NCBI GenBank assembly: GCA_003971905.1
Contig: RSEE01000073.1
Location: 124,001 to 188,000, forward strand
DNA length: 64,000 nucleotides
From: Moniliella sp. 'wahieum'
Lineage: Eukaryota > Basidiomycota > Moniliellomycetes > Moniliellales > Moniliellaceae
Reading direction: 5' to 3'
In this document: piece by piece, positions 1,241-59,938 of the stretch
How the letters are laid out: every line of letters begins with the position of its first letter
How positions within the stretch are numbered: position 1 is the stretch's first letter
Notes under the pieces: model-generated
Seen by the model: only the letters and a program-made list of their open reading frames with translations
The model's database searches: none
Told to the model about the DNA's origin: nothing
Translations under genes and position numbers: made by a program

Positions 1241-1264
1241 TCATGCATCATGCATCACCGGTCA
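1241..1264. repeat. TCA heptad run (cores TGCA, TGCA, CCGG)
   Basis: Four TCA triplets at exact 7-base spacing enclose the self-complementary tetramers TGCA, TGCA and CCGG. This is the leftmost example of the window-wide heptad grammar and already shows a switch of core without loss of phase. Confidence 0.85.
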
Positions 1265-4215
1265 CCAACAGCGGTCGCCTGCCTCGACACGGCCAAGGCT
1301 CGGCCCGAGGATGCTCGATCGATAACCCCACAGGATACCCCACAGAGTGGGGTCGGGAGTGTGCGTGCCTGCGCGAGCTGAGTCCTGAGGCTGAGTTCTG
1401 CAAGCGTCGGGTCTCAGGGCAAACGCACTTGCCGGTATATGTCTTGCGTTTGGTGGCTAATACGCGCTACGCACAGTGATGCGCACGTTTTTTCCTGCTG
1501 GGCCGAGCCGAACACAGCCGGTCAAAAAAGCTACACGAGACGGACGAATCAAAGGCCGACAAAACTCAAAAAGGCCGCCTGGGCCACGACCGCCACCGCG
1601 CCAGTGTGGGTGCGCTTTGACAGTGTTCCATATCTGTCGCCGACCTGAGGGGGAGAGGCTGGAAGAGGCAAGGAGGAAGTGGCGCTGGCGGTCAGGCGGG
1701 GGGGGGGGGCGCACAGAACACAACTGAGTGTTCTGTGCTGAGTGGCTGAGTACTATCACAGTTTTGGGGGGCTTTCCCCTCGAAGCCTCACCATTGGGGT
1801 TGTTGGGGGTCGGTTCGCATAGCAAGGTTGTGCGTATGCCCGCAACAAGTAGGACTAGTGTGGCTGTAGATGAGGCTCGGTGCCTGAAACGTTGGCCAGA
1901 AGGTTGACGCAGGTAAAGACCTGAGGGTATGACAGGTCCTGTGATGTCACAGCACTACAACTCCCAACTTTTGTAGTATCGCCGCTGGATCCGTACAGCT
2001 GAAAAGGAGACCGAAAGGAGAACGGCGCAATGAATACCGGGTCGAAATGAAAGGACACGGAAATACCTAGTAGTCGCTGATGGAAGCAGGTCGGTAGGAT
2101 GCTGGTGAACTATATACAGGAGTAACGTAGGAGTTGCTTGGTGGGTTAAGGATGGGTTTGCAAAGGATGTTGTTACAAAATGACCCGTTGGGGGGAAGAA
2201 CACCGTAGATGTCACGGGCGGGCGCCGCCAGGGGGCCCGCCCTGGGGTTTTTGGGGTACAATCCCTTAGGCGACGGTAGGTCGACTCGCGGTAGTTTCGG
2301 GCTTAGGCTGGTTGGTGCGTCCGAGCGGAGCTAGGGACGAGGAGAGGCCTTTGGTGGGGCGGCTGCACGTGTGGCAAGGCTGCGTCTGCACCGGCTTGGG
2401 CCGTAGTAACGTGTCTGAAGCCTCCGGGACTTAGGGACGGGAGGAGGCAGAGGGGGACAAACACTGCCTCAACAGAGACTGGGAATCGCCGCGACCAGAG
2501 GAGGGCTCGCGCGATTGGACTGACGAAGGGCTGGAGGACGAGGTCGGAGGAGAAGTCGGACGCTAACAAGAGAAGCTGTCTGTACTGGATAAATTGGCTG
2601 GAAACGGGCAGGAGTCGGACAGGATAGACGGGAAGGCGAGAGGATGACGAGAAAGGACGAGAATGGAAGGTGGGGGAAAAGATCCCCATCAACCAGGGGT
2701 ACAGGCAGGATCAAAAGGGAAACGGATACAAGAGGGGGTGTAGAAAGGAAGACATGTCAAAAGCGGGGTTGGTCGCCGCAGGCGCGACCGAGAAAGGAAA
2801 AGGAAACGGGAACGAGGCGGCAGACGCCGCCACGGCATTGGAAGCTCGGTGGCCTTATTTAGGCCGGCCGACTTGGACTTGGGCGGGGGGCGACTATTGT
2901 CGCGCGGAGCATGGTCCTTGTGCCACCGCACAGGGTACAACCAACCATCATCATACTTGGTTGGCCTGCGGAGCACGCTCTACTGGGCATGTGCGGAGCC
3001 GGCGGGCCTTAGCTTCGGTCGGACCATCTCGTGTCCGCCGCAGCCCGTGACAGTAGAACAACGGCTATACTACTCAAACAGGCGCTTTAAGGAATTGGCA
3101 TATACAGCGAAGAAAGGACGGAATAAAGGCGATGAATGTATGGCTCTCAAAAGGAGTACAGATCAAATACGGAAATGTTCTCCGCCAAACTCAGTTGGGA
3201 ACAGGACCAATCAAGCCCCAAAAGGACCCAAAGTAAAGTGGAGAGGTTCCCCGCCCTCAGCTAGAAACGTAAAAGGCATGTGGGGAGGATCTCACAAGCA
3301 GAACGAGACGATCATATGAGGAAGCTAACGTCCATCACATCTGGATGCTCAACTTGGAGCATATTTGCGTCCAAGACCAAAAAGATGATGTAAATCAGAT
3401 ACTCCAAAGCTCACGCACGGAGGGCCATGTCGGCTATGCAAAAGGAACTTACTCTTAACATTCAAGCCGGCCGGCGCACTCAGTCTTGCCATGCCCAATG
3501 TATAGTAGACCTAACCGAGGCAAGAGAGACAAGGGGAGAGGATGGGCTCGGCGGAGCTACTACTAGTAGGAAGACGGGGAACAGAGAGGCGACGATGGGA
3601 TGTGTGTTATTTTGTGAGAGGCTGCGGCTATATACCAAAAGACGAGAGGTGAACTATATTATGTAGATTCGCGGCCGTAGCAAAGGAAATGCAGCAATCG
3701 CGCATGGAGAAGAAGCAAGGGCAATACAGGCCAGGCCTGATGAAGGAAAAGCAAAAGGGTAGTGGGAGAATCGTCAATGCCATTTTCATGTTGTATCGAC
3801 GAGACCAAAGAGAGAGAGAGTTATGGGAGCACACCACTGCATAGATATGGAGACAAAAGAAGAACAAGAAGCTTCTTTTGGCTGTACCTAGTATGCCTAT
3901 GCCTTCCCATCCACAGGGGCAACGCGAGGCCATCTGTATTCGTGGCTGGGGATAGGAACACTTTTGGACACAGGGGAGCAGCTAGATTAGGCGGTGCTGC
4001 TAGGGTTGTGCGGCTGCGCGCGGTCAATCTGCCAGGGGGATTCCCATTTCACTAGTCACGGGACCCACGACTGGTCTGATTAAGCACCCCGCCCGGGGGA
4101 GCAGTCGTCGATCATCGATCATTGATGGATCCCCTGAGTACGATGCATGATCGATGATCCGCCTTGCTCCGCATCCCAGCCCGTCTCTCCGCCACCACCA
4201 CCAGCTCAGCTCCAG

Positions 4216-4275
4216 CTCCTCTTCCACCTCCTCTTCCACCTCCTCTTCCACCTCCTCTTCCACCTCCTCTTCCAT
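4216..4275 (+). repeat. 12-bp pyrimidine tandem repeat (5 units)
   Basis: Five tandem copies of CTCCTCTTCCAC, the last with one change, just upstream of the preferred striatin start. It would form a CT-rich leader or promoter tract, a common feature of fungal promoters. It could encode Ser/Thr or His/Leu runs if translation began further upstream. Confidence 0.8.
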
Positions 4276-4345
4276 CACCACCACCACCTCCTCCACCTCC
4301 TCGCCTCCCATCCCCCCCCCCCCAGCGCCCCGCGCGAGCATCCCC

Positions 4346-7046: not shown

Positions 7047-8325
7047 TCCGATCCAACCGGACCCGACCCGGTCCGATTTAGTTTTGGCACGCCCTCAGTC
7101 GGCCCCGGGACATGCTTCGCCCACCTCGCTTACCTCGCCCTTCCCTGTTTTGTAGAAACTGCGCGTGCTGTGTGTTGTATGCTATGTGCTGTGTGCTGTG
7201 TGCGGCATGCACCCCACACTCCCTCTCCGTGGCGATGCGCCACGTACTCCACCGCCTTTGCCCCCCGTATTGAATGGTCCTCTGACGTTGTACGATCCCA
7301 ACTCTCATTAGGCGAGCGGACTTGACTAGCTTGGATATGCTCGTTTATGGCGTGACTGGTGCCCAGACCTTTTCCCCAGCCTTTCTCCTTTCTCCCGTCG
7401 GGTGTGGGGAGGAGACAAGACAGATTTCAAGGCCCGTCCAAACGCCCCGCACCGTCGGCTCCCCTTTCCACCCTTCCACCCGCTCGAGCCTGCATGTGAA
7501 CGCGATGTCTTTCTTCGATCGATGGGACTAAGGGAGGGTTACACGTTGGACTCAACATTTCGGTTGAACGCGAAAGTTGATGCTGTTGATGGGACAAATG
7601 ATGTATACTCTACTAGAATATGCCCGAAAACGCTGTAGACCCTCCGCACCGCGCCGATCCCGTCTTTCTTTGCTTGTTACGAACGGTACCAATACTAACT
7701 TTTACTTTATTCGTCCCGGCTGCAATATACGGACACGGACTCTCCGTACCGTCGGGACAGAGGGTGAGTGGGTTCCTGCGAGAGGAAGAAGAGGGACAAG
7801 ATCAAAGAGGTATACGGAAGTGTGTACGTATGTACAGAAGGAGGGAAGTAAGACAAACAGAACGTGTGGGATCTTTGATCCATCGATCATCGCAGAGAAG
7901 GATAGTATATCAAAAAGGAAGAGCTACTAAGGCCAAAGCCCAGCGGGTCGAAACGACCGATCGGATCTGCGGTATAATCCCCTTGATCCGCTCGAGGCGT
8001 TTGTATTTGGCAGGTACTGAGAGCGTGGAGAACCACGGGGGCAAAACGGTGTTGGTTTGTACAGCGTATCGTAAAACGCGTGAGGCCTGAACTCAGGCGT
8101 CCCTGAGGCCCCTGAGGCCTGAGGGCCGGAAAAGCAAAAGAAAATGCCATGCCAACCAAAACCCAAAGAAAAACTCAACTCGGCTTCACGACAAAAACTA
8201 AGGACAAAAAACAAAAGGGATGAGAGTCTCTCATCTCTCATCTCTCATCCGTCGACCGAAAGAAACGAGTAGGTTAGGTGCTTGGCAACGCAGCAACCAG
8301 CGAGGGCGAGGTGTTGGGCAGCGCC
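7047..8325. other. Intergenic region between convergent striatin and Scd6 genes
   Basis: Both neighbours end here, so it holds two 3' regions. It contains TGA-GGCC-TGA heptads at 8081-8090 and 8113-8122 and a TCA-TCTC-TCA-TCTC-TCA run at 8231-8247 whose cores are not self-complementary. No gene recognised. Confidence 0.6.
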
Positions 8326-12652: not shown

Positions 12653-14213
12653 CTGCCTGCCTGCCTCCCGCCCCCTCGGTTGCCCAGCCCACCACTCGCC
12701 ACGCCCAGCCTCAGCTGAGTGCTCCACGTGTTTTTGCGGTCTGGCAGCATCAGTAATCCTCCCCCCCCGAGCCACCGCGCTCCGTGGTGGGCCCAAAATG
12801 CCCGAGTTTGAAAATCCCTCTCACAGTTTGAGCGTCGCTCGACCACTTCACTTGCACTCTGTAGCACTCTCTCGTGCCCTCGGGTGGAACAACAACTTGC
12901 CTCACTTCGCAGTGCCTTGTGCCATAGCCCCATCCACATCATCCATCCCTACCGATCACGATTTGGCCCACGCCTGAGGCCATGCCGACCAGCCCCCAAA
13001 CTTTGATCTACTCCCCAGCGAGCTAATCAACACATGCATCCACACCCATCGACCATCCGTCAACGTTCAACATTCAATCCATCTATCCCCAGTCCGTCAC
13101 TATTCATTCCACCCATCCATCCAGGTATCCATATGACCAGCCCACTCCTCTTGGTCCCCCCGGCAAGTGCACTCCCCTCCCCTCTCTTCCATCCGACTGA
13201 GCATGTAAAGCTCAACACTATAGCCACTGTGCTTCCCCGATGGACGGGGTATGCATTATGGTTGCTAGCTATGCATCGACGCCAACAAGGATGGTGAGCG
13301 CACGAGCGGGGGAGCGCGTACCAGTTCGGTCGACCTGTTTTTGTTTTCTGAGTGAGCAACACGGGTTGCCAGGCACCTCGCAGGCCCACCATGTCTCCCT
13401 TGCGGGTAGCTAGATGAAGGAAGGGGGTGCATACCCCTCCAGACGCGACCGTAACCCGTGTGTGGGCACGTTCTAGGTTTTGGGGTACCTGTTCGTGCCG
13501 AAGGGAACATTGGTCCGGTGCGTTAACTGGCGAGTTCTCCCACAACCTGGACACCATCCATCTAGCGTTCGCATGTCTCTGTGTGTCCCCAAGCGCCTGT
13601 AGCGCTAATGCTTCATTCGGCGGAAGCGTCATCGAGTGCTACATTGCCTGTGATGGCGCCGATGGGCCCGGTTCGATAGGCCGTTCGGTTGTATGGGGAA
13701 AACATGATTGGGTTCCATATTCTCGCTTGGATGTATTCCTGTACTTATGTAGACGCCCTCGCTCGGAAGCATCACCAGGCCTATGTCCTGGGTTGGGGCT
13801 GACAGCATGCCCAGCCATGTTGTCCGCCAACGCGCCAGTCGGGCGGGGGCCGGCCCACGTCCACCGGGTGTGGTGAGAGGGTAAAAGATGCGGGTGTCCA
13901 GTGTTGATTGACAAGAGGTCCCACCAGTTCCGAACGTGCCCACGGGTCCCACCGCCGGGCCAGTCGACGTCCATGGGGGTTGTGCCCGTAGGGAAGGGGC
14001 GGTGGAGGGGGGCTGGCCAAGCTATTTGCTTTTACTGCACCCCCAGCTGACTCGCCTCGAGATGCACGTGATCACGTGCACCCCAGCGGGGTTAGCGTCT
14101 TGGTTCCGCCGGCACCGACTCGCGGCTGCAGCAATTAACGTACCCAGGCGCTGTCCACTCGGGGGCAGGCCCCCCCATCCACCCATCCACCCATCCACCC
14201 ATCCGCCACCGCC

Positions 14214-16921: not shown

Positions 16922-17245
16922 GGCCAGGAGGGGTGGTGGGGGGGGCGGGGCTGGCGCTGCGCTCGGCTGGGACAGGTCCAGGGAGCGGGTGCGTTGAACG
17001 TTGAATTGGCGGCGCCAGACGGAGCGCTGCTGGCTGACAAATGGCCGTTCCGCCCGCGCGCCCATTCCGCCCGCCCAGGCGCCGCTGATTGCGGGTCGAT
17101 TACGCGGTGACGCACAGGTGGCTGCCAAATTATATCCTGGCCGCAACCGTGGGCTCCAACCCACTGCCACCTCTTCCTCCACCCACCCATGGAAATGGTC
17201 TACGTATCGAGTTGTGTGCCGCACGCACGCGGCTCATCTCATTAA
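16922..17245. other. Short intergenic region upstream of the NDUFB9-like gene
   Basis: About 320 bp carrying the NDUFB9 promoter and the 3' flank of the Vid21 gene. Its right end has a TCA-TTAA-TCA heptad at 17239-17248 that overlaps the Vid21 stop codon. Confidence 0.6.
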
Positions 17246-21198
<3,953 letters not shown>

Positions 21199-23751: not shown

Positions 23752-24352
23752 TGGGGGGGGGGGGGTTACTGGATGCGGGGTGGCTGTTGTGGCGGGTAGG
23801 GGATGTGTGATGCGCTGTGAGCGTGTGTGCTAGTCCCAGCTTCCAATCTACATTCTATTGTTTGACGTGAGCAATGGCGTGAGATGTGCGCTGTAGGTGC
23901 GCCCGGGACGCGATGGGCGCGAGGGCGGGGATGGTGGAAGGGCTGGATTGGCGCGCGGGGACGCAGCGGAGGGCGGCGGGAAGGACGGAAATGAAGTGAT
24001 TAATGATTCGCGGGCAAGGCGTAGCTCCATTCAACTTGAATCTTCAATTGAATGTTTGGCGGCGGTACGTTTTGTTTTGCTCGGGCGGCGGCCAGCAGCA
24101 GGGCCAGTGTGCAGGGTCTGCGTGTCCCCATTGAAGATTCAATTCAATTCCCTCGCCTCCAGCGCATCCGTTCGCCTCCTGCTCGCTCCCGCCGCCCCCT
24201 GCCGATTGTCTCGCCTCGCCACAGCGCACCCACTTCCCGTCTTCAAGCTTCATCGCCCTCGTCCTCGCCCTCCTCGCCCTCGCCATCACCACCGCCCTCG
24301 CCCTCGCCTCCGCCACCGCCATCCATCCCGCCACGACGGCCACCCTCTCCCC
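23752..24352. other. Intergenic region upstream of PHO85
   Basis: About 600 bp with a TGA-TTAA-TGA heptad at 23997-24006, AATT-rich short repeats near 24030-24150 and a CT-rich leader before the ATG. No gene seen. Confidence 0.6.
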
Positions 24353-28594: not shown

Positions 28595-29036
28595 GGCGGA
28601 GGTGGAGGTGAGGGGGGGGGAGACGTGAGGGGATGGCAGGGAAGAGGGCGAGCAGGGTGGGGGTGGGTAACAGGTAACAGGTACGGATGGATGGGGACGT
28701 ACAACTAGCAGCTGGCCACTTGTAACTGGAGTAGCAAGTAACCAGTAACCCCGCTGGGCTGCGTGGACCGTGCCACCGGAGTTAGGCCTTGGGCCGGGGA
28801 GCCGGGGAGAGCTGAGACCGGTGCCGGTGACGCCAGAGGCCCTCAGCTTTGTAGGGTTCAAATTTCAAGATCTGCATTAGGTAATGGGCCAGTGCGGAGC
28901 GGATGGGGGCGGAATGGAGGCGGTGATGGGATGTGTTGGATGTGATGGGATGCTGCCTGTTCGTCTATCTCCGCCGCTGGCTGCGCTCGGGTGTGCATTT
29001 TTATCGAGTGCGCCTGTGTCGAGGGCACGCCAAAGA

Positions 29037-34807: not shown

Positions 34808-35418
34808 GCGCTCCGGTCTTGTTCCAAGGCTCCTGGGATCTCCTTGCGTTGGGTCCCTGCTATTTCGTTCGACATTATTCCTCTTCTCTGCACCCTGCTC
34901 GCTCGTCTTCTGGCAACTGCCCTGCCCAAAAATTGTTCCTCTAGTCCAATCATGAAATGGGTGATGAGATGACGCGATGACGAACGAGCTGCTCCGTAGA
35001 AAAGCTAGTTGGAGCCTGGTCGACGGATTGGCGCTGCGCCAAGAAAGAATCAAACCATGAATCAACAACCCAACTCGGAACGAAGCAGATTTATATTAGA
35101 AGCGGTGTGGCGCTGGGGGCTGCGACAGACGCCGGACGCCCCTGGGCTGAGCGGGGGGGCTGTGGGCGCTGGGCAGCCGTCGGCCCCGCCACTACACCAC
35201 ACTGCACAAGCCGCATTGCACCACACCCGCTGCCCGCCCTGGGTGCTCCAGTGCCATCACGCCCTCTTCCTCCCCCGCATTCTCCCCCACCACCGCCCGC
35301 ACCTGCCCCCCCCCTTCCTCGGTCGGCAGTCTCCGTAGTCTGGTCCTGCTTCCCCTACGCGCCACGGCCCATCACCTCCCGTGGGTACGCATCAGCATCC
35401 ACGCCAACAACCGCGACG
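34808..35418. other. Intergenic region between tandem plus-strand genes
   Basis: About 610 bp. A TATA-like ATTTATATTAG lies at 35089-35100, some 320 nt upstream of the next ATG. Nothing else recognised. Confidence 0.5.
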
Positions 35419-38484: not shown

Positions 38485-39192
38485 TCTTTTTACTAACCTG
38501 AAATGAACTGTTGCGACTCAATGACCAACTGTGGGCGCCTTACTCGCTATAGATGATCGATGATCAATGATCGATGACCGGTGACCAACGCGTAACATTG
38601 CTGGACCCGAAATCGGGAAACACTAGGGCAGTTACCGGTTACCCTCGTATAGCGTTCGACTCGCCCTTCTCGTTCAAGCTCTTGTCCAGCATGGCCGTAT
38701 TCTGTACCCAGAGCCAACTCTGGCTCCAATCCATCACAACCTTTTCCTCATTCTTCTGCCCATCTGGCCCCCTAGGCCAACCTGAGGCAGTATAAAAAGT
38801 AAGAGTGAGGTAGGGGATGGTAAACACGTAGCCTGCTGGCCTGCGCGCGGCAACTCTGGCACATAATAGGGTCTAGCTTTCAACAGCTACTAGTAATGGT
38901 AGATCATATAGCGACGAGACATTTATAACTCAGTGATCTGTCTGCAACGATGTAAATATTACATTCGTATAGTAGGCTTGGACCGAGAATGAGGAATGAA
39001 GGGAGAGGTTCGATGCATGTGGAAGATTCGTTGGAATAAGATGGGGTGGGGGGTAGCGAAAAAGCAGGGTTATCATTGCCCGTCCCAAAGGAGGTGTTGG
39101 CGGGTCGAATGCCTTTTGCATTTGAGGGGAAGGTGGCAGAGTGCAGGGTAGAAGAGGAGGAAGAAAGCATCATGGACATAATGTCGTCACAG
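38485..39192. other. Intergenic region between tRNA-Glu and the MFS gene
   Basis: About 700 bp holding the heptad run at 38554-38584 and the MFS 3' flank. Nothing else recognised. Confidence 0.6.
38554..38584. repeat. TGA heptad run (cores TCGA, TCAA, TCGA, CCGG)
   Basis: Five TGA triplets at exact 7-base spacing. Three of four cores are self-complementary; one (TCAA) is not. It lies 70 bases downstream of tRNA-Glu. Confidence 0.85.
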
Positions 39193-41008: not shown

Positions 41009-41783
41009 CTGATGATGGCTCGGCTGTCGGCATCCTTGGTAGCCGTCACAGTAGACTGCTCCGGCTGTTTGCGAACGTTGAGTTTCATGGTCGAAAACAA
41101 TGGGCGACGCTAAGGTCGATGGGTCTTGTTGGTAGTGGGTTGGAAGACGAGCAGAGAATGCGATGGAGGGAAGGAACGAAGCACCGTTCGGCAGTGCCTT
41201 TTAAAGGTTTGTTGGCTTTCAAGCTGGCTCACTGAGAATAAGTGGGGAGCGATGCAGTGATATGTCACATCGCGCCAGCTGGGAGGCGCGGTGGCACACA
41301 GGCTCACGTCAAGTTCCAGTGTGCACACCCCTAGCCCTGGGGGTTTACTATCGTAGACCGCTGCAATGCCTACTCCACCATCGTTCCCGTTCCTCCGCCC
41401 CATCCAGTGGAGAACACTGCCCCACGGGCTGGCCGATCTCTGCCGACTCCGAGTGTTGAAGTGCGACTGGGCGCCTTACAGCAGAGATCATGCACCAAGG
41501 AGTCAAACATCAAACCAAAACATGGCGGCGGTGGGCCCCCGCAAGTGGGCATGGAGATGTGTTTTGTTTCATCCGCGGGAGCAGTGGCACCACGAGCTTC
41601 CTTCACACGATGGGCCGATGGTCCTCTCTCCTTCGTCACCCGCGTCATGCGTCACGACAGGCGTTACGGGTTAGATCGCGCTCTTCGGTTCCTGCATTCC
41701 CCATCTGTGCAACCGGGGATGTTGGAACACGCGACCTTGGGCCTTAGCCTTAACTCCAATGACTTGTTACAGGATGCGCCTGT

Positions 41784-41800
41784 TCAACGTTCAACGTTCA
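41784..41800. repeat. TCA heptad run (core ACGT x2)
   Basis: TCA-ACGT-TCA-ACGT-TCA at exact 7-base spacing; a single TCA-GCGC-TCA follows at 41963-41972. Confidence 0.85.
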
Positions 41801-42278
41801 CCTGGCTTTGACTCCCCCTTTGCCTCACGGGTCTACAGCCCCCGTTCCAGCTCCGAGACCGAAGCATTGGGACACAGTACTCAGCCTGAGTACTCAGCGC
41901 GCACAGAGTGTTCATCCTACGTTCATCGATCGAGCTCCGTGGCTCAGCGCGGGCCCAGCGGGTCAGCGCTCATCGCCATCGTTCACCCACATCGATCATC
42001 GCATAGTACACTGTGTGATCCCTGTGGAGCGTTGCACTCAGACCGAGCGCTCAACGCTTGACGGATGAAAGACTGGGAGAGTGCCCGCGTCGGCTTGCTG
42101 TGGTCCTGGCGCTTGGCACACTGGGGGCGAACTCATGCGAGCTTGCCGTCCTAGGCTACCGAAGGGCAAGAGTCATGGCGTTGTGGCGGCACATGTGAGA
42201 TGTGATGGCAAAATTCGAGGGAATGTTGTTACGCACTCACTTTTTCGGACTGAAGATCTGACAAGCTAAGCAGTGATG

Positions 42279-42295
42279 TGACATGTGACATGTGA
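42279..42295. repeat. TGA heptad run (core CATG x2)
   Basis: TGA-CATG-TGA-CATG-TGA. Single heptads with the cores CTAG (42445-42454), CATG (42469-42478), TCGA (42532-42541) and CCGG (42933-42942) follow within 700 bp. Confidence 0.85.
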
Positions 42296-43378
42296 CGTAG
42301 CATTGGTGTCCCGCCCCCACTAGCCACTGCTTCCAAGCCTATGCGACTTGGCTTGCCTTGGCCTGCCTTGGCCACCGGCGAATGCCCTCAGCTACTCCGC
42401 ATCTCCATGTGACGCGGGTTAGGCGTGACGAATGGGCATGTGCATGACTAGTGACTAGTATGGTGCTGTGACATGTGAGGGACGACGCGTGACGCGGTGA
42501 CGAGAAAGACCTTCGGCCTTTGGGACATCGGTCATCGATCAGATCTAGGATCGAGCTACTGCTTCGGTGCCACAAGACACAGGTGGCCACCAACGTTGTA
42601 CGTTGTACGTTGTACGTTAACGGTATGTTGATGCATGATGGCGTTGCCAGGACGGTCGAGGGGCATGCTCATACAGACGAAGCCATCCTTGCCCCCCAAC
42701 TTCCTACTATGATATTCAGGCCGACTCTTCCCCCTTTCCCCAAAAGTCAATGTGGGGCGAACGTTGGCAACAAGTGCGTCCGTTTCATGTCACAGCCCCA
42801 GCCACAAATGGTAGCGTCAAACCGGAGCACCTACCATCAAAAGAAGCGCAAAAGGCGGAGGAGATTGCAGACGAGCAAAGCGCCATGCATGACGATGATG
42901 GATGATGCCGATGATGGACGATGCGTGTCCGGTGACCGGTGACCGGATGACCGATGCTCGGGTTTCAAAAAATATTGAACCTTAATAATCAGGCGATCGT
43001 GCTCTACGTACTCAGCGCCCAAGGCGCAGCAGCGCGCAGCAGCCACGTACAAACTGTTTCATGTAGCGTGTAATCAAACTTAACCCAAAATCAAAGCGAC
43101 CGACGCGGGACCGACACACTGCCCCCCTGCGACATCGGTCAAATTATGCTGTGGCCGCAACTGCAGCCGAGTGTCGCAGGCCGCGCGGTGCGGCTTATCT
43201 ATCACCCGAACGAACAACCAGGACTGCGAGAGACACTACGCACTCCATCGCCTACGTCATTGAACTTGTTCTTCATCGCATCCTTCCTGCCCGACGTGCG
43301 GCACCTCCGTATGCCGCGCTCCCACTCTCTTCCCTACTTCTGGAATACTTCCCTTCTGCCTTGAAGAGTTGAAGCTCT

Positions 43379-43475
43379 TCAAGCTTCAAATGAACTTCAA
43401 ACTTCAAGCTTCAAGCTTCAAGCTCGATGATCGATGATCGATGATCATCGATCATGCATTATCATATATCATATA
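43379..43475. repeat. Mosaic TCA/TGA heptad array (cores AGCT, TCGA, TGCA, TATA)
   Basis: The longest array in the window. TCA triplets every 7 bases enclose AGCT several times; the array then switches to TGA with TCGA cores (43428-43444), turns to TCA with TCGA and TGCA (43445-43458) and ends with TCA-TATA-TCA-TATA (43462-43475). One core (AACT) and one triplet (TTA) deviate. Confidence 0.85.
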
Positions 43476-43920
43476 GGTTGAACACGTTGAACGCTTCAAT
43501 GTATACTGCACGTCGAAGGTTGACGCGTTGATGTGTGGACGTCGTGGAAGCTTGAGGCTTAAGTTGAAGTTCTCGGCGATTAAGGAGCTTAAGGAGCGAG
43601 CGTCCTGTGGATCGCCCAGCGGTGGGCTCATCATGCAGGAAACCAAACCATCGCAATGGGAAGATGAAGAAGATATGACTGTTTGATATGCTTTTGTGGT
43701 CGAGTGCATTTTGGTGGAGTAGATCAAATCCAGTGTCCCCACTTGGATCGAATATCATATGGGATGGATGTGCACCCAGAGAAATCTCGATCTCATTCCG
43801 CATTTAGACTCTTCCAATGGAACTGCGCGGTTGTACATCACTGCAGCGAGAACACTCCAATCAGTCAGACCGGCCATTGCCTGTTAATTGGTGCATTTTC
43901 CTTTGACACAGGGAGTGACT

Positions 43921-43948
43921 CTAGTGACTAGTGACTAGTGACTAGTCA
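43921..43948. repeat. TGA heptad run (core CTAG x4)
   Basis: CTAG-TGA repeated at 7-base spacing, ending CTAG-TCA, so the last triplet is in the other orientation. Confidence 0.85.
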
Positions 43949-44311
43949 AGTGACCAATTGATATTGTTACAGACCCATCGCCAGTCACACATGCGTTACA
44001 GCCTGTTACAGCAAGTGATTAGTGTGCTTGCCGAGTCCGCGATATATGATAGTTAGCGCAGTGCATTTGAGGGAAAGGTTCAGCGCGTAATACAGCGCTC
44101 GCTCAGCGCACTCAGCCTGGCCCAGCGCCTAAGGCTCTGCGCTGGGTCGCAGGAGGTCTATGGCATGTGAGCCGCTGAGCGCCTCAGCGCGCTCAGGCTG
44201 AGCGACGAATACCAAGCTGGGGTGTGCATCCGTCTTGTACTCAGTTAGGCACGGCAGTGCGTGAGTATCCGACACTTGAGTGTATTAGTCCTAGCGCGAA
44301 GCCATGGAGGG

Positions 44312-44335
44312 TGATGCATGATGCATGATGCATGT
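44312..44335. repeat. TGA heptad run (core TGCA x3)
   Basis: TGA-TGCA repeated three times, closing with TGT. Confidence 0.85.
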
Positions 44336-44583
44336 TGCGTGCCACACGAAGTGTGGTGCATGATTCTATGTATGAGGCAGCGGGGCGCCCAGCTTAAGTG
44401 TTCCTTCTTCGATGCGAGCGAAAAAGTAGGCAGAGTCGGGTGTTTGGGCTGCGGCGTTTGATGTCTCAGTTTCGCCGCTGTCTCTGGCTGCCCACAACGA
44501 CCCTAGCTGTGCATCTGTATGTAGACCCAACGCATCATTCAGTCACCCGGTCACCCCGGTCACGTAGTCCCCAGTCACCCTAG

Positions 44584-44656
44584 TCACCGGTCACTGGACG
44601 TGTGATGCATGATGCATGATGCATCCAACATCAATTATTTCATCTCTCAGATCTCA
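44584..44656. repeat. Heptad cluster (cores CCGG, TGCA x3, TCTC, GATC)
   Basis: TCA-CCGG-TCA at 44584-44593, TGA-TGCA three times at 44603-44623, and TCA-TCTC-TCA-GATC-TCA at 44640-44656, with a further TGA-GGCC-TGA at 44705-44714. Confidence 0.8.
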
Positions 44657-45054
44657 GGTCGGACATATATCCCGACGATACATGCTTGGTTGCTGAGGGC
44701 TCGCTGAGGCCTGAGGTACCGTGCGTACCAGAGGACATATACCTCCCACCTATCGACTATCCCCACTTGTCTTTTATGTCTACTCTCCATGACATTTTTG
44801 GACATCAGTAATACTCCTTGATGCATCGACCGCGCTGGAGACAGGGCACGCGTATATATCTCAAAGAGAGGATATTATTCCTAGGGTATAACATCGTCAG
44901 AGAATGGGGCTGGCCCACTGGATCTAGTCCTCTTCTTTTCCACCGTTGAACGTTGAAGCATAAAGCGGACAAGCAAAAAGCGGACAATTAAAGCAAAAGC
45001 GGACCACTATCTGATCCAACACACTACTGAGGAAACATCAGATTCACGCCAAGG

Positions 45055-45126
45055 CACGTCCATTTCATTGACAGAGCTTAAGGCTGGGACAGGGGGAACG
45101 CTACGTCTAAACCTAACCGTTCATCT
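45055..45126 (-). repeat. Dispersed repeat, copy 1 (retroelement 3' tail?)
   Basis: A 72-bp segment nearly identical to 47834-47906; the last 45 bases (from GGCTGGGACAGGGGGAACGC) are identical in both. Copy 2 lies about 30 bases beyond the stop of the reverse-transcriptase relic, so copy 1 may be a 5'-truncated insertion of the same element. Flanking inverted sequence (CCCAGC..CCTTAAGCT at 45138-45154) could fold back on AGCTTAAGGCTGGGA within the repeat. Confidence 0.7.
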
Positions 45127-45164
45127 AGGTTTTCTTTCCCAGCAAGCCTTAAGCTGCGCCGGCT

Positions 45165-45188
45165 TCAAGCTTCAAGCTTCACCGGTCA
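45165..45188. repeat. TCA heptad run (cores AGCT, AGCT, CCGG)
   Basis: Four TCA triplets in perfect 7-base phase with a change of core from AGCT to CCGG. It begins just after the fold-back flank of the dispersed repeat. Confidence 0.85.
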
Positions 45189-45363
45189 CCACTTCTTCTC
45201 CTCTCTCTTCCCTTCTGGCGTAATGTCACCGTCACCGCTCTGTAACCTCCACAACGCCCGTTCTCTTACGATTCCAACTGATGCTTTTGTTCCTGTTGCG
45301 ACCTTGGCATCCTCAGTTCAGGATTGTTCAGGACCAAGCCTCTCACTAGGTACATTTGCGGCT

Positions 45364-45380
45364 TCAAGCTTCAAGCTTCA
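45364..45380. repeat. TCA heptad run (core AGCT x2)
   Basis: TCA-AGCT-TCA-AGCT-TCA, almost the same as the run 200 bp to the left. Confidence 0.85.
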
Positions 45381-45660
45381 ATTCGCTACATATAGCCTCA
45401 CGCGTCACGGTGCTTCCACAGACGTTTGCCCACCAGTAGCTAGCTCACAGTTTGGTAGTAGTATAGGCCAACACCTTTAGTGAAGTAGGCGGTTATTTCT
45501 CCGCCCGTATATACAGTACGATGATATCGATGATACCTCCAAGATCACCGGCACCGTGCAACGACCCCCCCCTATTTGATGGCAACCACCACACTTCGAT
45601 CTCAAGAGACGAGCTCGCCCGTCGCTCATAATGATGTGCATGATGCACATTATGAGCCTC

Positions 45661-45694
45661 TCATCGATCATCGGCCCTCAGGCCTCAGGCCTCA
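45661..45694. repeat. TCA heptad runs (cores TCGA, then GGCC x2)
   Basis: TCA-TCGA-TCA at 45661-45670 and TCA-GGCC-TCA-GGCC-TCA at 45678-45694. Confidence 0.85.
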
Positions 45695-45781
45695 GGCTCC
45701 TCATCTCATCGTAAGCACCATAGTAGAAGAGAATGCACACCACACACACGTATTATCGATCACATATCTCTCTCCCCGCCC

Positions 45782-45855
45782 CCCGGCAACCGAGATGGCT
45801 TAAGCGGTTAGCATAGCTGTTCGCTCCAACATTCAATTCCGTCACCTCGGCCGGG
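45782..45855 (+). ncRNA. tRNA-like hairpin of unknown identity
   Basis: The segment ATGGCTTAAGCGGTTAGCA resembles the D-arm and A box of Ser/Leu-type tRNAs. The ends pair as CCCGG(CAA)CCGAG with CTCGG-CCGGG, giving a 5+5 bp stem. No normal anticodon arm or T-arm can be drawn (nearest B-box-like text is CATTCAATTCC). It may be a tRNA-derived relic, a SINE head, or chance. Confidence 0.3.
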
Positions 45856-46028
45856 AATAACGAACGAGAGAAGGTTGAGGACACAATGAAGATCGATTAT
45901 TTTCGTCCCCTGAGTCAAAAACAAGGATGGAGGTGAGGTTTAAGAGAGGAAAAGTATAGTGGGCCATTTGCTATTAGGGATAATGAAACAATCGCCATAG
46001 GATTTGCGTCAGAAGGGTGCGGCCACAA

Positions 46029-46128
46029 GTCGGGTTAGCTCAGATGGGAGAGCGTGAGATTGAAGATCACTTCAATGGAACATCCTCTGGATTCCTCAAG
46101 GTCCCCGGTTCGATCCCGGGGCACGACA
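46029..46128 (+). tRNA. tRNA-Phe(GAA) with 27-nt intron
   Basis: GTCGGGTTAGCTCAGATGGG (acceptor and D-arm), anticodon loop TTGAAG, T-arm CCCCGGTTCGATCCCGGGG, acceptor 3' strand GCACGAC, discriminator A, then a T6 terminator at 46129-46134. 100 nt = 73 mature + a 27-nt intron after position 37. The intron contains CTTCAA, complementary to the anticodon loop, as expected. Two stem positions do not pair (G5 with A68, A31 with C39), so it may be a slightly degenerate copy or contain base errors. Confidence 0.85.
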
Positions 46129-46265
46129 TTTTTTGGCGATATGGTTACACAGGCATCTACCTCAACAACCACATAATCTCTCTTCGCTGTGAATCGGGGA
46201 AAATGTCTTTTTAGGTAGGATGAATCCGCCGTCCCACGGTGCGTTAGGCTTAGATCACAGAGACC

Positions 46266-46408
46266 TCAGATCTCATCAGCATAGATCAGACGACTCCTCA
46301 GGCTGTGCGAGCTGAACCTATTCTGAAAAATCTTCAGAAAAGCCATGTGACCTGTGAGGTATACTACTATGTGAGTTCGGAGAGGCCTGTGAGAGGTCTG
46401 AGGCCTGA
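46266..46408. repeat. Two heptads downstream of tRNA-Phe (cores GATC, GGCC)
   Basis: TCA-GATC-TCA at 46266-46275 and TGA-GGCC-TGA at 46399-46408. Confidence 0.75.
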
Positions 46409-47906: not shown

Positions 47907-47936
47907 TGCGGGGGTTACTTAGGGGCGCCACCAGGG

Positions 47937-48305
47937 TCAAGGAACCAGGGGGATCGCCAGGATATCAGGACCCTCCGACTCATGCCATCCGGTCCCGTAC
48001 CCTAGGAAGCGCGTATGGACACGGAGGAACGTGGTTGACATCCGAGCGAGGAACCATTTCCACTGAGACTTAGTAACCAACTCCTTCCAATGCGCAAACA
48101 ACTTGCTCGCCGTCTTGGTGCCGTAGTATCCTCGCGTCGTCAAAACCAGGGGGAAAAACGTCTCTTGAGTGCGTCCCTGGTACTTGGCGTTCTTCTCGCA
48201 TTCTGCTTGTTCAAGCATCCGAAGCAGCTCCTTCTCCGGCGTTCCAAGGGGGTTGCGGTGCTCGCGTGCACCACCCTCCGGAATAAAATCGGTCGAAATG
48301 GCCTG
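47937..48305 (-). pseudogene. Reverse-transcriptase C-terminal relic (retroelement remnant)
   Basis: A single frame reading ECEKNAKYQGRTQETFFPLV, LTTRGYYGTKTASKLFAHWK and FLARMSTTFLRVHTRFLGYG. This resembles the extreme C-terminus of retroelement reverse-transcriptase polyproteins, where a block like FTPFV(x)STDGLLGKEA is followed by W..P and (R/A)RMS.A..RA....LRGSR. There is no start codon; an in-frame TAA precedes it at 48312, and no RT palm motif (YxDD) is found upstream. So it is a 5'-truncated, dead copy. Assignment rests on remembered family pattern, not on a search. Confidence 0.5.
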
Positions 48306-48494: not shown

Positions 48495-48502
48495 CACAGC
48501 AG

Positions 48503-48521: not shown

Positions 48522-49662
48522 GGTCTTCTCGTTTTGCAATAAAACCCATCCTACGCCGTGGTTAATCTGCTCTTTTGTGGGCATGTTGAATCTGGATATA
48601 AAAGCCTCTGGGCTTATTATGAGCCTGCACATGAGATCGAGCTTTTTGCTCTAATGGACGGCAAAAGTGTGGGGTATAGTGTGGGGTATGCGACAGATTG
48701 GCAGCGCATTGGACTTGATGCCTTTTATATCATCTCTGTTGAAAAGGTGGGATAGTGTTGATGGAGAAAAGTACACAACTGATTCGAGAGAAGCAGAACG
48801 TGTGGAAGGCTGTAAGAGACCCATAACATCGTAAGCGCCTATCAAATACGAGGAGAGACGAGAGAGCTATGGGGTTATACTCATCTGGGTTAGTAGACAC
48901 GATGTGGGCGAGGTAAACCGTCTCCAATAAGAATCTTTCGGCAAGTTTTTTCTTCCAGTGTGTTCAAGCATCTTTTTGCATTCTTATTGGTGTGTCTCGT
49001 CTTCAGCCTGAAGGGAGAGAGAATGTGTTTAGTGAGTCCCTGGTTCGAGGTATTCTTGTGGCAAACCGCTTGCACGGACCACCGATTCAACTCCTTTTCT
49101 CCAAAGGCTGTCCATGGACGTCACTGTGTCCTCGTCATGTGCCACCACGGCTCAGTCAAAAACGGTCTACGCAACCTTGCCCTCCTTGCACCGAGTCGCT
49201 TTTAGAGTGTGCCCCAAACTCAACACATCCATTTTTGAGATCCGACAAATGTCCCTGTCCCCGTCCATATTCTCGTGCTATGCCAGATTCAATTTGGAGA
49301 CGAGGAGAGCGATGCAAGATAGGGGAGAACGGGATATGGTCCTGATCTACTACCGCCGCTGTTGGCGCTGCCATAGTTGATGGCCTTCAATAATTTCAGG
49401 ACGGGAACCAGTGATGGCGAGACGAGCGAGGCTAGTGTGGTGTGGTTGAAGCGGTTCCCAGAACCCCCTGCTGGTGCTTAAAGTTAGTGTGTATTAGATA
49501 GAAGATAGATGCCAGTATGGATTCGGTCATACTTTTATAGGCACTCGATCGTCGTAATTGGCAGTTTTGCTCGCCGGAATACACGCGAGAATAATAGCTT
49601 GCTGGAGTGTGACTTGGGAGCACTCGCGATCCTACAACGGATCAGCTGCAAAGCATCAGCCT

Positions 49663-49672
49663 TCAGATCTCA
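49663..49672. repeat. TCA heptad (core GATC), preceded by TCA-GCCT
   Basis: Third occurrence of TCA-GATC-TCA; a further TCA lies 7 bases upstream (49656) with the non-palindromic core GCCT. Confidence 0.75.
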
Positions 49673-50049
49673 GACAAGGCCTGAAGGCGAAGTGGCGAGC
49701 CACAAGTATTCAAGTAACGTCCGAAGGAAAGGAGACAGGAGAGAGAGGAGGGAGATGGAGCGAGCAGGGGGTGCACGGGCTGTGAGAGCGGAACTCTTCT
49801 GGCAGGCTCTAAGCGAGCGTCACCGGTCAACTGAGGGTCGGGCAGGGGAACCCTAGCACTACCCTCCAGCATAGGATAGTAGACTTGACTTGGGGATCAG
49901 TAAAAGCGCTGTAAGCATTGGTCATCATCTTCTGTAAAGTGGCTCGTGCTCCGTGGGGGGAAATGAAATGACATCATCATTAGCTAGAGTATTCCCTGTC
50001 GCAAGTGGAACAGTCTCCCAACGAAATGGCATGTGGCGGGGGAATAGCA

Positions 50050-50808: not shown

Positions 50809-50817
50809 GTATATATA
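50809..50817 (+). promoter_or_regulatory. TATA box of the 50966 gene
   Basis: TATATATA followed by a C run, about 150 nt upstream of the ATG. Confidence 0.5.
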
Positions 50818-54135: not shown

Positions 54136-55928
54136 CTAGATGCGTGCATGGGCGCGGCGGCGGAGCCACGTGACGCCAGCAGCGAGCACGGCAGCGAGCA
54201 AGAAGGCCACATCAAACAACGTCCCAAACGCATCTTCAAACGGCGGGAGGGAAGCCAACAGAGCCGGTCCTGGATCGACGGCGGTCCCTTGCGCAATCGC
54301 TTGGCCTGCCACGGGCGCGTTCCGGCCCAGCAAGTGGGCGGGGGAAGAAAGGGAAGAGGAAGAGGGATAGGAAGAGGGCGCTACGCCCGAGATCAAGTGC
54401 GAGCTAGGACCTGAGCTGGGTGCCCACCCCGAGCCTGAGCCTGAGCTCGAACCGGCCCCGGCGCCGGGAACCGATCCGGCTAGCGAGCCAGGGCCCAGCG
54501 CGCGGTGAGGGAGCAAGATGGCACGTACTTGGAGCAAGGCCGCGAGCAAGTAAGCCGCGCCAGCTTGGGCTAGGAACAAGGCCAGGCCATCAGCGGCGTG
54601 GTGGAAGAGGCTTGGGAGGAAGAAGAGAGGTAGCGTCCCAAGCGCAGGAGGCCGTTCATGACGGTTCGTAAGCGGAGCGAGATGAGGATGCCAGCAACGA
54701 GGAGGGAGGTGACGTGGGTCAGCAGGGCTGGGTCCAAGTGCGCCGTGGGAAGATGGAGCAAACGCATGAACCAGAGTAAAATGCTCGATGCATGTTCAGT
54801 TGCCGTGCCTGATTTCCCACTGGGACGCCACGAGCGCGGCAAAAGGAGCGAAAGGAGCAGACTAATCAACGTGGTTAGGATGATCACTGCGCCGTACAGT
54901 CCCACCACGGCGTCGAGCGCCAAAGTAGCTCGTCCCATCAGGCTCGTGGCACGTTGCGCGCGCGCATGCGCCGCGGCCAGGTGCGAGCGATCTTGTTCGA
55001 GCGTGAGCGTGATGCGTTCCAGCGAGTCCAGCTCCGAGCGCAGCACCGCCGCATCTTTGCCCCCGGGTAAGGACCGTAGTACCGAAGGCACCCACCCGCC
55101 CCATCCAGGATCTTTAGTGTGGTCCTTTTGTTCCAGCGCAGCCAGCGCCAGCCGTTTGGACGCCGCGTCTTCCCTTGCCCGAGTCACCGCCGCATCGGCC
55201 GCAGCCAAGGCAGACGAATGCGAATGGGATGCTGTGCCACGGGAAGGCGTCTCGGTGACAGTAGAGGAAAGCGGGATGTAATCTTCCGACGACGAAGCCG
55301 GTGCCAGACCCAAGTAGGGCGCGAGCCATCGCGGCGCCCACAGTTCGGCATCGAGCCATGCGTCCGACGCTGCGGCCGCGGCGGCACTGCCAGACAAAGT
55401 CCTAGTAGCACGGTACCGACGGTGCATAGGCGCAGGAGGCCGGGGGCCATCAGCGTGTGGGGCACGTCCGACGGCACGGGGATGGCGAGAAAGAGGAGCG
55501 CCCAAAGGAGGAAAGGGATGAGCGTAGCACTCCAAGCAACTTTGCTGGTAATGCGGCCGTTCCACAGACCGGTCCCAAGACCACACAGCACCAGCGGGAT
55601 CAGCACGGCATGGAGCAGAGCGGTGGCGAAACAGGCGGCGGACCATAGGGGGCGGAGTTGCGGCCGGGCACTAGGGCCCAGCGCCGCATCGGCCACAACG
55701 AGAACAAACATCGCCGCGGGCTCCTCGAGAGCAAGACTGAACAGCAAAGAAATCTTCCATGGCGCGGAGGGCGGAAAGCGGGTGCGCGGGCCACCGCGGG
55801 CGTGGGCAGGTCGGCGGTGGCAGAGGAGGCTCGAGCGCGCCGCGGACAAAGGGGAGGAGCGCGCGCCAGCACACGGCGGCAAACACGCCGCGCACGGCGA
55901 GCACCACCACGTGCGCCGTGCCCAACAT
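54136..55928 (-). CDS. Golgi pH regulator (GPHR)-like multi-pass membrane protein
   Basis: Related to GPHR/GPR89 and plant GTG proteins. It starts MLGTAHVVVLAVRGVFAAVC at 55928. It has hydrophobic helices WKISLLFSLALEEPAAMFVL and AACFATALLHAVLIPLVLCG, a coiled central loop (SELDSLERITLTLEQDRSHL) and the family segment ALDAVVGLYGAVIILTTLIS. The C-terminal helices are VTSLLVAGILISLRLRTVMN, LFLAQAGAAYLLAALLQVR and LFDVAFLLAAVLAAGVTWLR, with TAG at 54136. The order loop, VYGAVI helix, ILISLR helix and LF..VFLLSA end is that of GPHR. Frame changes occur near 55800 and near 54595 (after TTPLMA). Mutants elsewhere affect Golgi acidification or glycosylation; the exact role here is inferred. Confidence 0.78.
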
Positions 55929-56823
55929 GCGTATGGAGGGGGTGGGCGCAGACGCGTATGGAGCACGGGCGGGGCAGGCGGCTGGCGTGGCAAGCCCAGC
56001 AAGCGCGGCGAGGTGGTGGCCAGCAGGTTGGTGGGACGGGGAGCGAGCGAAGGCGGTCCATCAGGACATCAGTCGACTGGTCGCTGTGCGGTTGGATCTG
56101 GTCATCGATCATTGACGGCCATTCATGCATCGTGATGCATGACTGCCACCACCCAGCCCCAACTTTCAGGCGCCACGCTGCAAGAGCGAGATGCTCACGT
56201 GACCGACGATCTGCCTCCGGTCGCTGCCCAGCTCGCTGTGGCGGGGCGCGCTTGGCTATGGAAAGCACCGCACAACACGGACAAGGAGGGCAGGCAAGCA
56301 TGGTTGAGGGGGGGGGGGGGCGGCGCCTGCGTCGCACCTGGCACCTGGCATCTGGCAGCTGGCAACCGGCCCAGAGTGGGTTAGGCGATGGGGGGGGGAG
56401 GGGTCCTGCGACGAGGTCCACAATCGCACCAGACGTGTCCGAACCCCTTTTCCTTTTGCTGCTACTTTTCACCAAACACCGGTCCCCCCGGGCCGACCAA
56501 GCGAGGGACGCGAGCATCAGGAGGGGCTCGGCCGTGCAGCAGGGAAGGATGTGGGTCAAGGGAACGAAGGAGCGGAGCGTGGGGACATGGGACAGGAAAG
56601 GATGGGTATGGGGGGAGCGGGGCGGGGCAAGGCAGACAAAGGCATGTGTGTGCGTTTGGTTGCTAGTTGGTGGTCGGGGGGGGGCGCTTCGGCTGAAGCT
56701 TCAGCTGAAGCTTGAGGGCGTAGTGAAGGATATGGAGCGCGAGGGGCGGGCCGGGAGGGGGTTCTAAGAAGTAGGTGGGTAGGCAATAGAAAACCGAGAT
56801 AGGTAGGTAGGCAGTTGCAGTAG
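55929..56823. other. Intergenic region upstream of GPHR-like gene
   Basis: About 900 bp with heptads TCA-TCGA-TCA (56102-56111) and TGA-TGCA-TGA (56133-56142), a run of twelve G at 56310, and a fold-back AAGCTTCAGCTGAAGCTT near 56696-56713. No gene called. Confidence 0.6.
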
Positions 56824-58471: not shown

Positions 58472-58773
58472 GGTGGGGAGGCAGCGGAGGGCGGACGTTG
58501 GACGTGGACGGCGCAGAGAGAAAGGAAGGGCGAGCGGCAGGCGGCAGCCACACCGAGTACTCAGTTGAGTAGTGTGCTGGCGGATGATCGATAAGCAGCA
58601 AATAATCAGGCCCAGCGCTGGGCTGTCGGGGGCTGCGTGCGCACTGCTCGCTGTCTGAGTGCTCGTGTGGGATGGCAGTGCGTACGTCAGCGCAGCGTGC
58701 ATCCCAAGCTTGGCATGCACTATGCACGGGCCGACTGCGATCGGCCGCCGCGAGCATCGATGGACGATGCACG

Positions 58774-58790
58774 TCACGCGTCACGCGTCA
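58774..58790. repeat. TCA heptad run (core CGCG x2)
   Basis: TCA-CGCG-TCA-CGCG-TCA; TGA-GTAC-TGA follows at 58920-58929. Confidence 0.85.
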
Positions 58791-59076
58791 CAGCGTCACG
58801 CTGGGCCAGCCATGCGCCGAGACAGGGCGGCTGGGCTGTGCAGGCCAGCAACCCAGGCGTCGTGTGCCATGTGCCATGCGACATGCGACCAGTGCGCGTC
58901 ACCTGGGTTACTGTCCTACTGAGTACTGACGCGTACGCAACTCCAACGCAGTCCTGCGCACGCCCAGTGTATGACCAACGCAGCGCCGGGCTTGTCTCGC
59001 TTCGCACCCGCTGCCAGCGTCGGCTGAGGCCCAGGCGGCCGCGCTGTGCCCCGGTGGGACTGGTGACCAGCACACG

Positions 59077-59114: not shown

Positions 59115-59658
59115 CTTCAAGGCGGCATGCAGCCTGCAGCCTGCGCGTCATGCTCTGCGCGTGCCCACGCAGTACGCAGTCGCAGTACTCAGTACTCACC
59201 GCTTGCCCGCCACACGCATTGCTCCGGGCGCCACATTGGGCCCTGGCACAGCACAGTGCACCTGTGCGGCAGCCAGCCGCGGAGCACTCAGACCAGGGCC
59301 GCAGTTCCCAGTACTCAGTACCCAGTTACTCCGTGCGGGTGCCTGCGGGTGCGCCTGCCATGCAATGCGCCCCCTCACCCATCGATGCCGCTCACCGGCC
59401 ACCTGTCATCGATCGTGGATCATCGAATCTGTCGACGCGCTTTCGAATTGGCAGAGCATCCAATATCCAACGTCCAGCTTCCAGCCTCCCCGCCGCGCCA
59501 GGCCGCTGCCAGCTGCGTTGGAACGGCCGCCTGGGAAGCTGGAAGCTTGGAGCGTTCACTGGAACTGTCCCACTGCAAAAGCTTGAGCGTGTTCAACAAC
59601 AAGCTTCCAGGGACTGCTGACGTACGAGTAGCATCATGTGCTGCTTGCTAACCGAGGC

Positions 59659-59698
59659 CATGTGCCATGTGCCATGTGCCATGTGCCATGTGCCATGC
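59659..59698. repeat. CATGTGC heptad tandem repeat (5 units)
   Basis: Five perfect copies of CATG-TGC. Same 7-base period and a self-complementary core, but the spacer triplet is TGC. Confidence 0.9.
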
Positions 59699-59910
59699 AC
59701 CCCCTCGCATACAAACAAGACATGCGCATTCCGCCTTGCGCGCTGCCCCACCCGAGGCCTGACCCCTGGGTTGCTACATCGACCGAGGGGAGCACCTTAC
59801 CCACCCCATTCCAACACGTCCCTCCCGAGTGTGCTGGCGCTCCGCCTCAACTCCTCTGTGCTCCCCGCCCTCCACACGGCGGGGGTACGCGAGCCTATGC
59901 ATCACCACAT

Positions 59911-59938
59911 TCAACGTTCAACCGGCCATCATTAATCA
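59911..59938. repeat. TCA heptads (cores ACGT and TTAA)
   Basis: TCA-ACGT-TCA at 59911-59920 and TCA-TTAA-TCA at 59929-59938, 18 bases apart start to start. Confidence 0.8.

Follow-up and report, generated by a model that had tools for sequence, protein, structure and literature searches.

Results

Heptads in the window and across the assembly

The window analyzed here is the whole 64,000-nt stretch RSEE01000073.1:124001–188000 (contig C73) of the assembly of Moniliella sp. 'wahieum' (69.49 Mb, 223 contigs). It holds a high density of heptads, 10-mers in which two TCA or TGA triplets, set 7 bp apart, enclose a tetramer that is its own reverse complement. Palindromic cores fill the pattern T[CG]ANNNNT[CG]A in 76 places where 50 dinucleotide shuffles predict 2.3, a shuffle total that covers three of the four flank combinations: TCA..TCA (42 observed, 0.86 in shuffles), TGA..TGA (31 and 0.62) and TGA..TCA (3 and 0.82). 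The fourth, TCA..TGA, has no palindromic core in the window. A first-pass annotation of this DNA had found about 60 such 10-mers by eye where about 2 were expected, and its view that the pattern is non-random is borne out. The confinement to palindromic cores that it had named as supporting evidence holds as well, with 34 non-palindromic cases (13 + 9 + 4 + 8) against about 47 in the shuffles.

All fifteen cores listed in that annotation were recovered where it had placed them, except that ACGT lies at 31992 rather than 31993. The window has no ATAT, as reported there, and this core occurs four times in a 200-kb sample taken at set positions on contigs C1–C3. The core is therefore free yet palindromic, as had been claimed, with 15 of the 16 possibilities used in the window; the sample uses 14, lacking AATT and TATA, and its cores starting with G are about half as frequent as the rest. 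A further claim, that different palindromes are strung together, fails: another palindrome follows a TXA-palindrome-TXA unit 25 times against 26.7 expected, and a count in which 19 of 95 neighbors were mixed is accounted for by the common TXA.

Loci were counted in window and sample under the rule TXA-palindrome-TXA, again with dinucleotide shuffles as the expectation. The sample contains 186 (6.5 in shuffles), of which 160 keep period 7 for 5 or more bases (1.0 in shuffles), and identical TCA or TGA flanks enclose 178 palindromic and 135 non-palindromic cores. Scaled up from this sample, the genome would hold some 55,600–64,600 loci. One particular unit, TCAGATCTCAGA, occurs 1229 times genome-wide. 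When its spacer is left free (TCAGANNTCAGA) the count is 1774, so that the palindromic spacer alone accounts for 69% and is some 34 times as frequent as the remaining fifteen are on average. Those fifteen total 545, above the 65 found for all sixteen spacers when the motif is read backwards, and part of them may be decayed scars.

The enrichment is confined to palindromic cores, to TXA flanks (X = C or G, with A or T weaker) and to a period of 7 or its multiple 14; other periods show nothing comparable. Small excesses, possibly of derived origin, also appear at ATG and ATC flanks in both window and sample and at GCA flanks in the window, and cores with one mismatch show a slight excess at most. 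Among 216 period-7 arrays with a run of at least 7, 107 carry a hexamer palindrome, and 102 of these 107 are bounded by A..T, whereas palindromes bounded by C..G, G..C or T..A show no comparable effect. Hairpins with a TXA loop and an arbitrary stem were also considered and set aside: 4-bp non-palindromic stems are ordinary in number (45 around TCA, fewer than around GCC, CAG, CTC, CCA or CGC).

None of the 62 window loci falls within seven hand-picked long open reading frames (ORFs; 13.6 kb, four with Pfam matches), as would be expected if 7-bp frameshifts are avoided in exons. Further mechanically called ORFs of similar length, whose status as genes is not established, do contain loci (for example 15971–17224 and 55658–56767). 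A scan of prokaryotes for the 19-mer TTCAAGCTTCAAGCTTCAA proved unusable as a control; it returned at least 120 stretches, many from Pseudomonas. In some prokaryotic records among the matches listed, TTCAAGCTTCAAGCTTCAA recurs at 21-bp steps, which suggests coding repeats. The titles and abstract beginnings searched contain no description of the heptad pattern, which does not prove its absence from print.

The founder unit is a 12-mer

Period-7 run lengths around A....T palindromes peak at 5 (77 loci) and 12 (16 loci), rather than at 7 or 14, and the peaks were recounted for TXA-flanked loci as well; the heptads are therefore unlike the product of whole-unit tandem duplication. Most run-5 loci are 12-mers, 37 of the form TXAn1n2-n2'n1'-TXAn1n2 and 25 of its mirror form, in which TNANN is repeated around a 2-base spacer that is the reverse complement of its end. 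This 12-mer is the primary object, and the palindrome is secondary to it. The flanks of 62 isolated 12-mers show no consensus.

The spacer relationship depends on T.A. Where the copies of an exact 5-bp repeat stand 2 nt apart, these two spacer bases are the reverse complement of the repeat end in 62 of 89 cases with T.A and in 44 of 677 others. With the same spacer length, the corresponding fractions are 6/19 and 9/207 for 6-bp repeats, 9/28 and 9/104 for 7-bp repeats, and 1/2 and 0/40 for 8-bp repeats. Among the other repeat and spacer lengths none is comparably prominent, with 7-bp repeats and a 2-nt spacer showing a weaker excess (18 versus 8). Of 118 oriented 12-mers, 103 (87%, background 74%) have G or C at X, with no decisive bias between the two. 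TXA is self-complementary except at X, and neither G nor C is decisively preferred there, which fits a two-fold symmetric enzyme acting at NNTNANN.

The 12-mers, arrays and related duplications picked out in the window are as follows.

902..916, plus strand: heptad-free duplication GTTCACG-c-GTTCACG with one P nucleotide (7-bp repeat list)
1239..1266, plus strand: ATGCATC array, then a putative scar TCACC-GG-TCACC (heptad count)
8102..8124, plus strand: CCTGAGG-cc-CCTGAGG-CCTGAGG, spacers of 2 and 0; target apparently used more than once
13060..13071, plus strand: 12-mer TCAAC-GT-TCAAC, putative scar (12-mer count)
17239..17250, plus strand: 12-mer TCATT-AA-TCATT, putative scar, overlapping by 5 bp the stop-codon end of a long minus-strand ORF
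23997..24008, plus strand: 12-mer TGATT-AA-TGATT, putative scar (12-mer count)
28737..28750, plus strand: plain duplication AGTAACC-AGTAACC (7-bp repeat list)
34968..34982, plus strand: duplication GATGACG-c-GATGACG with one P nucleotide (7-bp repeat list)
38552..38586, plus strand: three clustered heptad loci (ATCGAT, ATCGAT, ACCGGT; locus count)
41782..46408, no strand: ORF-poor region with the highest heptad density of the window (heptad and ORF lists)
43477..43492, plus strand: duplication GTTGAAC-ac-GTTGAAC, in which ac is the reverse complement of the first two duplication bases
43921..43946, plus strand: (CTAGTGA)3.7, the longest array of the window, overlapping AGTGACT-ct-AGTGACT at 43914–43929
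44573..44588, plus strand: duplication AGTCACC-ct-AGTCACC with two P nucleotides off the right flank (7-bp repeat list)
49663..49674, plus strand: 12-mer TCAGA-TC-TCAGA (TCAGATCTCAGA), putative scar; exact 7-bp gap against an 81% identical L021 paralogue with an empty TCAGA
58772..58801, plus strand: ACGCGTC array with an extra CGTCACG copy 8 nt off (locus and repeat counts)
59910..59940, plus strand: two putative scars, types AACGTT and ATTAAT (locus count)

Paralogues contain empty sites

Diverged copies within this one assembly, from a single species, provide about 24 kb of alignment. Eight distinct heptads could be compared, and five are missing from the partner by an exact 7-bp gap, two of these overlapping in L039. 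The remaining three comprise one 10-nt gap, one heptad that is common to both copies and decayed by substitution, and one complex case. The cleanest examples lie at window position 49663, at 2990 of L043, where CTTCAAGCTTCA stands opposite CTTCA in L044 (copies 92.6% identical), and at 654 of L039, where TGACGCGTGACG stands opposite TGACG in a second L039 copy. L043 and L044 are about 93% identical across 3.5 kb. Variable cores and empty sites with a single TXANN speak against one ancestral repeat and plain slippage, both of which the first-pass annotation had rightly judged inadequate.

Seven-base duplications occur outside the heptads

We examined exact, maximal direct repeats with spacers of 0–10 nt and recorded the position of T.A within each repeat. 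Among 397 7-bp repeats, T.A occupies the central offset in 66 (14.4 expected) and the other offsets in 11, 10, 21 and 23. The excess persists after removal of every case that touches a heptad: T.A is central in 46 of 346 (12.5 expected, 3.7-fold; binomial p = 5e-14) and at the other offsets in 7, 7, 12 and 9. Spacer bases palindromic with the adjoining repeat end are here called P nucleotides. In this heptad-free set, with spacers of at least 2 nt, at least two P nucleotides at a spacer end are found in 17 of 33 T.A-centered repeats and in 22 of 235 others (Fisher p = 5e-8). Examples are CATTAGC-gc-CATTAGC, GTTGAGG-ac-GTTGAGG and GTTGAGC-aac-GTTGAGC, and CATAAGA-CATAAGA is a plain duplication. 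Heptad-free repeats of 5 and 9 bp show no T.A excess at the center.

Single targets seem to have been struck repeatedly. Three-copy targets with two different spacers number 16 with T.A centers and 9 with the other three complementary centers combined (overlaps counted), as in ATTGAGC-ATTGAGC-gc-ATTGAGC, and slippage alone does not produce unequal spacers at one target.

Two further lines were abandoned. That m1 or m2m1 is kept at lags 8 and 9 (the target being written m2 m1 T X A n1 n2) does not prove a 7-bp duplication, as repeats without P nucleotides behave similarly (25/32 versus 54/80; 20/43 versus 50/93); because both kinds retain these bases about equally, the duplication claim is based on the exact maximal repeats. 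A predicted product of +11 with P nucleotides of both ends was seen in two cases, one of them in a pre-existing palindromic context, which is too few to use.

Other features of the sequence

A dispersed family bounded by TGTCACGGGC..GCCCGTGACA (TG..CA) has the look of a solo long terminal repeat and is found at window 2210–3052, L030 8696–9610 and L023 2622–3448, one copy with an altered base. Its 5-bp duplications, present in two of three copies, are not TNA-centered, and the family was rejected as the agent behind the heptads. A second candidate element, at L036:2855–3394 between GATGAGG duplications, appears coding-like by eye; its ends agree over 6 leading bases, hardly better than chance (1 of 2622 pairs), and it was likewise discarded.

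Short dispersed families whose end is ACTACCCTCCA or ACCACCCTCCGG, which we would guess to be similar to short interspersed elements, occupy window 49596–49868 with L021 4290–4544, and window 47837–48281 with copies in L038 and L042. At window 41900–44200 the heptads have many scattered [TCA]CAGCGC words beside them that lack period 7 (by eye). TATATA, ATATAT and GTATAC reach about 12, 6 and 3 times their dinucleotide-shuffle frequency in the window plus L021–L040. Long tandem repeats based on hexanucleotides (TGGGCT / CAAGCC) at window 17559–18013 and 25436–25617 match one another in reverse orientation. A 100-bp tRNA gene with an apparent intron lies at window 46029–46128 and is recognized by Rfam and missed by ARAGORN in bacterial mode. 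Striatin-like and Ndc1-like proteins are encoded, and a microbial rhodopsin family gives eight matches on C8, C15, C23, C39 and C43 (six in L041–L046), some of which may be exons of one gene. Together with the tRNA, these genes fit a fungal genome.

Discussion

A proposed origin by excision and hairpin joining

We consider it probable that the heptads are scars of transposon-like excision, in which the flanking ends were closed into hairpins, opened and rejoined. A two-fold symmetric enzyme would act at m2 m1 T X A n1 n2 (NNTNANN) with a 7-bp stagger, and insertion would therefore duplicate a 7-bp target, as for a cut-and-paste DNA transposon. Upon excision both flanking ends would be closed into hairpins, each hairpin would be opened 2 nt (or 3) past its tip, and one strand would be joined; openings of 2 and 3 nt lead to the same product, since the third base is T on either side. 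The left end would then supply TXAn1n2 followed by n2'n1' as P nucleotides, and TXAn1n2 would start anew at the right end. The predicted product is TXAn1n2-n2'n1'-TXAn1n2 or its mirror, a net gain of 7 bp that holds the palindrome A n1n2n2'n1' T. Openings elsewhere would yield 7-bp duplications with 0–10 nt in between, and repeat visits to one target, perhaps with later slippage, would give longer arrays. The T common to both ends would act as a one-base microhomology, and this may explain the dominance of one product. A copying process on palindromes, one of the readings offered in the first-pass annotation, comes close to this scheme and differs in causality, as the target would be any NNTNANN and the palindrome would arise in repair.

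Several observations weigh against this origin. In the paralogue alignments, 7-bp gaps (10) do not stand out from those of 5 bp (6), 6 bp (9) and 8 bp (4), and five of the ten 7-bp gaps are not T.A heptads; one of these five is TCGTG-CA-TCGTG, a similar form with TCG in place of TCA. The polarity by which the 7 bp would have been gained is putative, suggested by the excess of heptads over chance. Heptad-free repeats of 8 bp exceed expectation at offsets 2 and 3 (10 and 14 versus 6.0), as do those of 6 bp at offsets 1 and 2 (53 and 41 versus 29.6), in all cases by at most 2.3-fold; we read these as 7-bp duplications shortened or lengthened by one base. A single product dominates here, whereas Ac/Ds scars are more heterogeneous. 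A search for an intact element flanked by NNTNANN duplications found none in 264–324 kb of the 69.5 Mb. Seven Pfam models found no match in the 69.5-Mb assembly: PF05699 and PF14372 for hAT, PF18758 for KDZ, and PF18759, PF13359, PF10551 and PF21787, which between them add Plavaka, DDE_Tnp_4, MULE and P-type. The hAT and KDZ models were silent in the control genomes too, and this negative is weak because five of the seven gave no control-genome match either. Such an agent may have been lost, may be rare or too far diverged, or may be a domesticated enzyme.

The sequence evidence would fit equally well a sequence-specific nuclease or domesticated transposase that makes 7-nt staggered breaks at NNTNANN, followed by fill-in, hairpin closure and end joining with no transposon involved, and the failure of the seven models and of the 264–324 kb to reveal a transposase or transposon also speaks for it. 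However, no such enzyme was identified here and, to our knowledge, flank-hairpin chemistry is confined to transposases and their domesticated kin, which counts against this explanation; we regard it as unlikely. We are equally doubtful of a programmed or domesticated host process rather than a parasite, in which a DDE-type nuclease would make hairpin-ended breaks with a 7-nt stagger at NNTNANN, working at a steady rate across the non-coding genome, with tens of thousands of 7-bp insertions fixed and no transposon involved. Heptanucleotide slippage, favored where the self-complementary hexamer of the unit can fold as a hairpin, as in CAG/CTG expansion, would account for the longer arrays (runs of 12 and 19) and for the palindromic units in half of the arrays with runs of at least 7. 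Slippage requires a starting repeat, however, and the empty sites have one TXANN only; growth of a microsatellite by whole units from an existing repeat is likewise at odds with these single TXANN and with half-unit ends. Slippage also leaves unexplained the roughly 30-fold excess of loci over chance, the indifference of hexamer palindromes with other outer bases, and the TNA-centered 7-bp duplications with P-type spacers outside heptads. We think it very improbable as the origin, and it may have lengthened arrays already formed.

The first-pass annotation had also suggested a family of binding sites, in which selection would maintain TGA half-sites around variable palindromes for a family of proteins. 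The lack of loci in the picked ORFs would suit such sites, but the 7-bp frameshift would account for this avoidance of exons. Nearly all cores are used, one-mismatch cores are barely enriched at most, the flanks lack a consensus, and most comparable loci differ between paralogues by presence or absence of 7 bp, and we give selected binding sites almost no credence.

Comparison with known systems

Hairpin closure of flanking DNA, as in the excision origin that we favor, is known for hAT and RAG/Transib transposases. In V(D)J recombination, Artemis opens hairpin coding ends about 2 nt past the tip, and palindromic nucleotides remain in the joints. The likeness to the heptads lies in this opening offset and in the P nucleotides; the V(D)J reaction differs in being programmed, directed by fixed signals and limited to vertebrate lymphocytes.

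Excision scars of Ac/Ds, which form by hairpin opening in yeasts and plants, show P nucleotides and have lost bases at the joint, as a rule with microhomology, according to a study that analyzed footprints from 128 revertant colonies (PMC5873905). As described there for Candida albicans, S. cerevisiae and plants, these scars resemble the heptads in their P nucleotides, short joint deletions, target-site duplication and hairpin intermediates, the last of which are proposed here (PMC5873905). Ac/Ds duplicates 8 bp (PMC5873905), in contrast to the TNA-centered 7 bp found here, and the present case further differs in its one dominant product, in scars estimated at tens of thousands and in a hAT transposase that went undetected. 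The canonical 8-bp duplication of hAT elements finds little echo in these data: one of 42 8-bp repeats with a 2-nt spacer is P-type, and the T.A peak lies at 7 bp and is weaker at 8 bp.

Fungal hAT families with 7-bp duplications have been described, namely hAT7 of rust fungi, as have the Kyakuja elements of Laccaria, also with a 7-bp target-site duplication (PMC12730594). A hAT-like element with 7-bp duplications, such as hAT7, is by analogy the closest precedent. It shares with the present case a fungal host, the 7-bp duplication (here read from scars rather than from an element) and, if the proposed origin holds, the hairpin flanks that hAT excision gives; it differs in that here neither element nor transposase was found. 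The section on hAT7 states neither a target consensus nor footprints, and the words "footprint" and "hairpin" are missing from the main text of that paper (PMC12730594). Kyakuja is likewise fungal with a 7-bp duplication, and the passage describing it is silent on excision chemistry (PMC12730594). PF18758 has no match here, where the controls were silent too. The chemistry is of a known kind; its amount, the uniformity of the product and the form of the target are unusual.

Implications

If the proposed origin is right, the heptads would preserve the outcomes of tens of thousands of natural hairpin-end joinings, and counting them could measure which targets are chosen, how far past the tip hairpins are opened and which strand is joined. 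An invisible or lost transposon would then be recognizable from its scars alone, including its duplication length and target consensus. The test used here, which combines k-bp repeats, the center of a symmetric motif and P-type spacers, is applicable to any genome. In this lineage, insertions of +7 would be a major source of mutation in the non-coding DNA and could seed heptanucleotide arrays.

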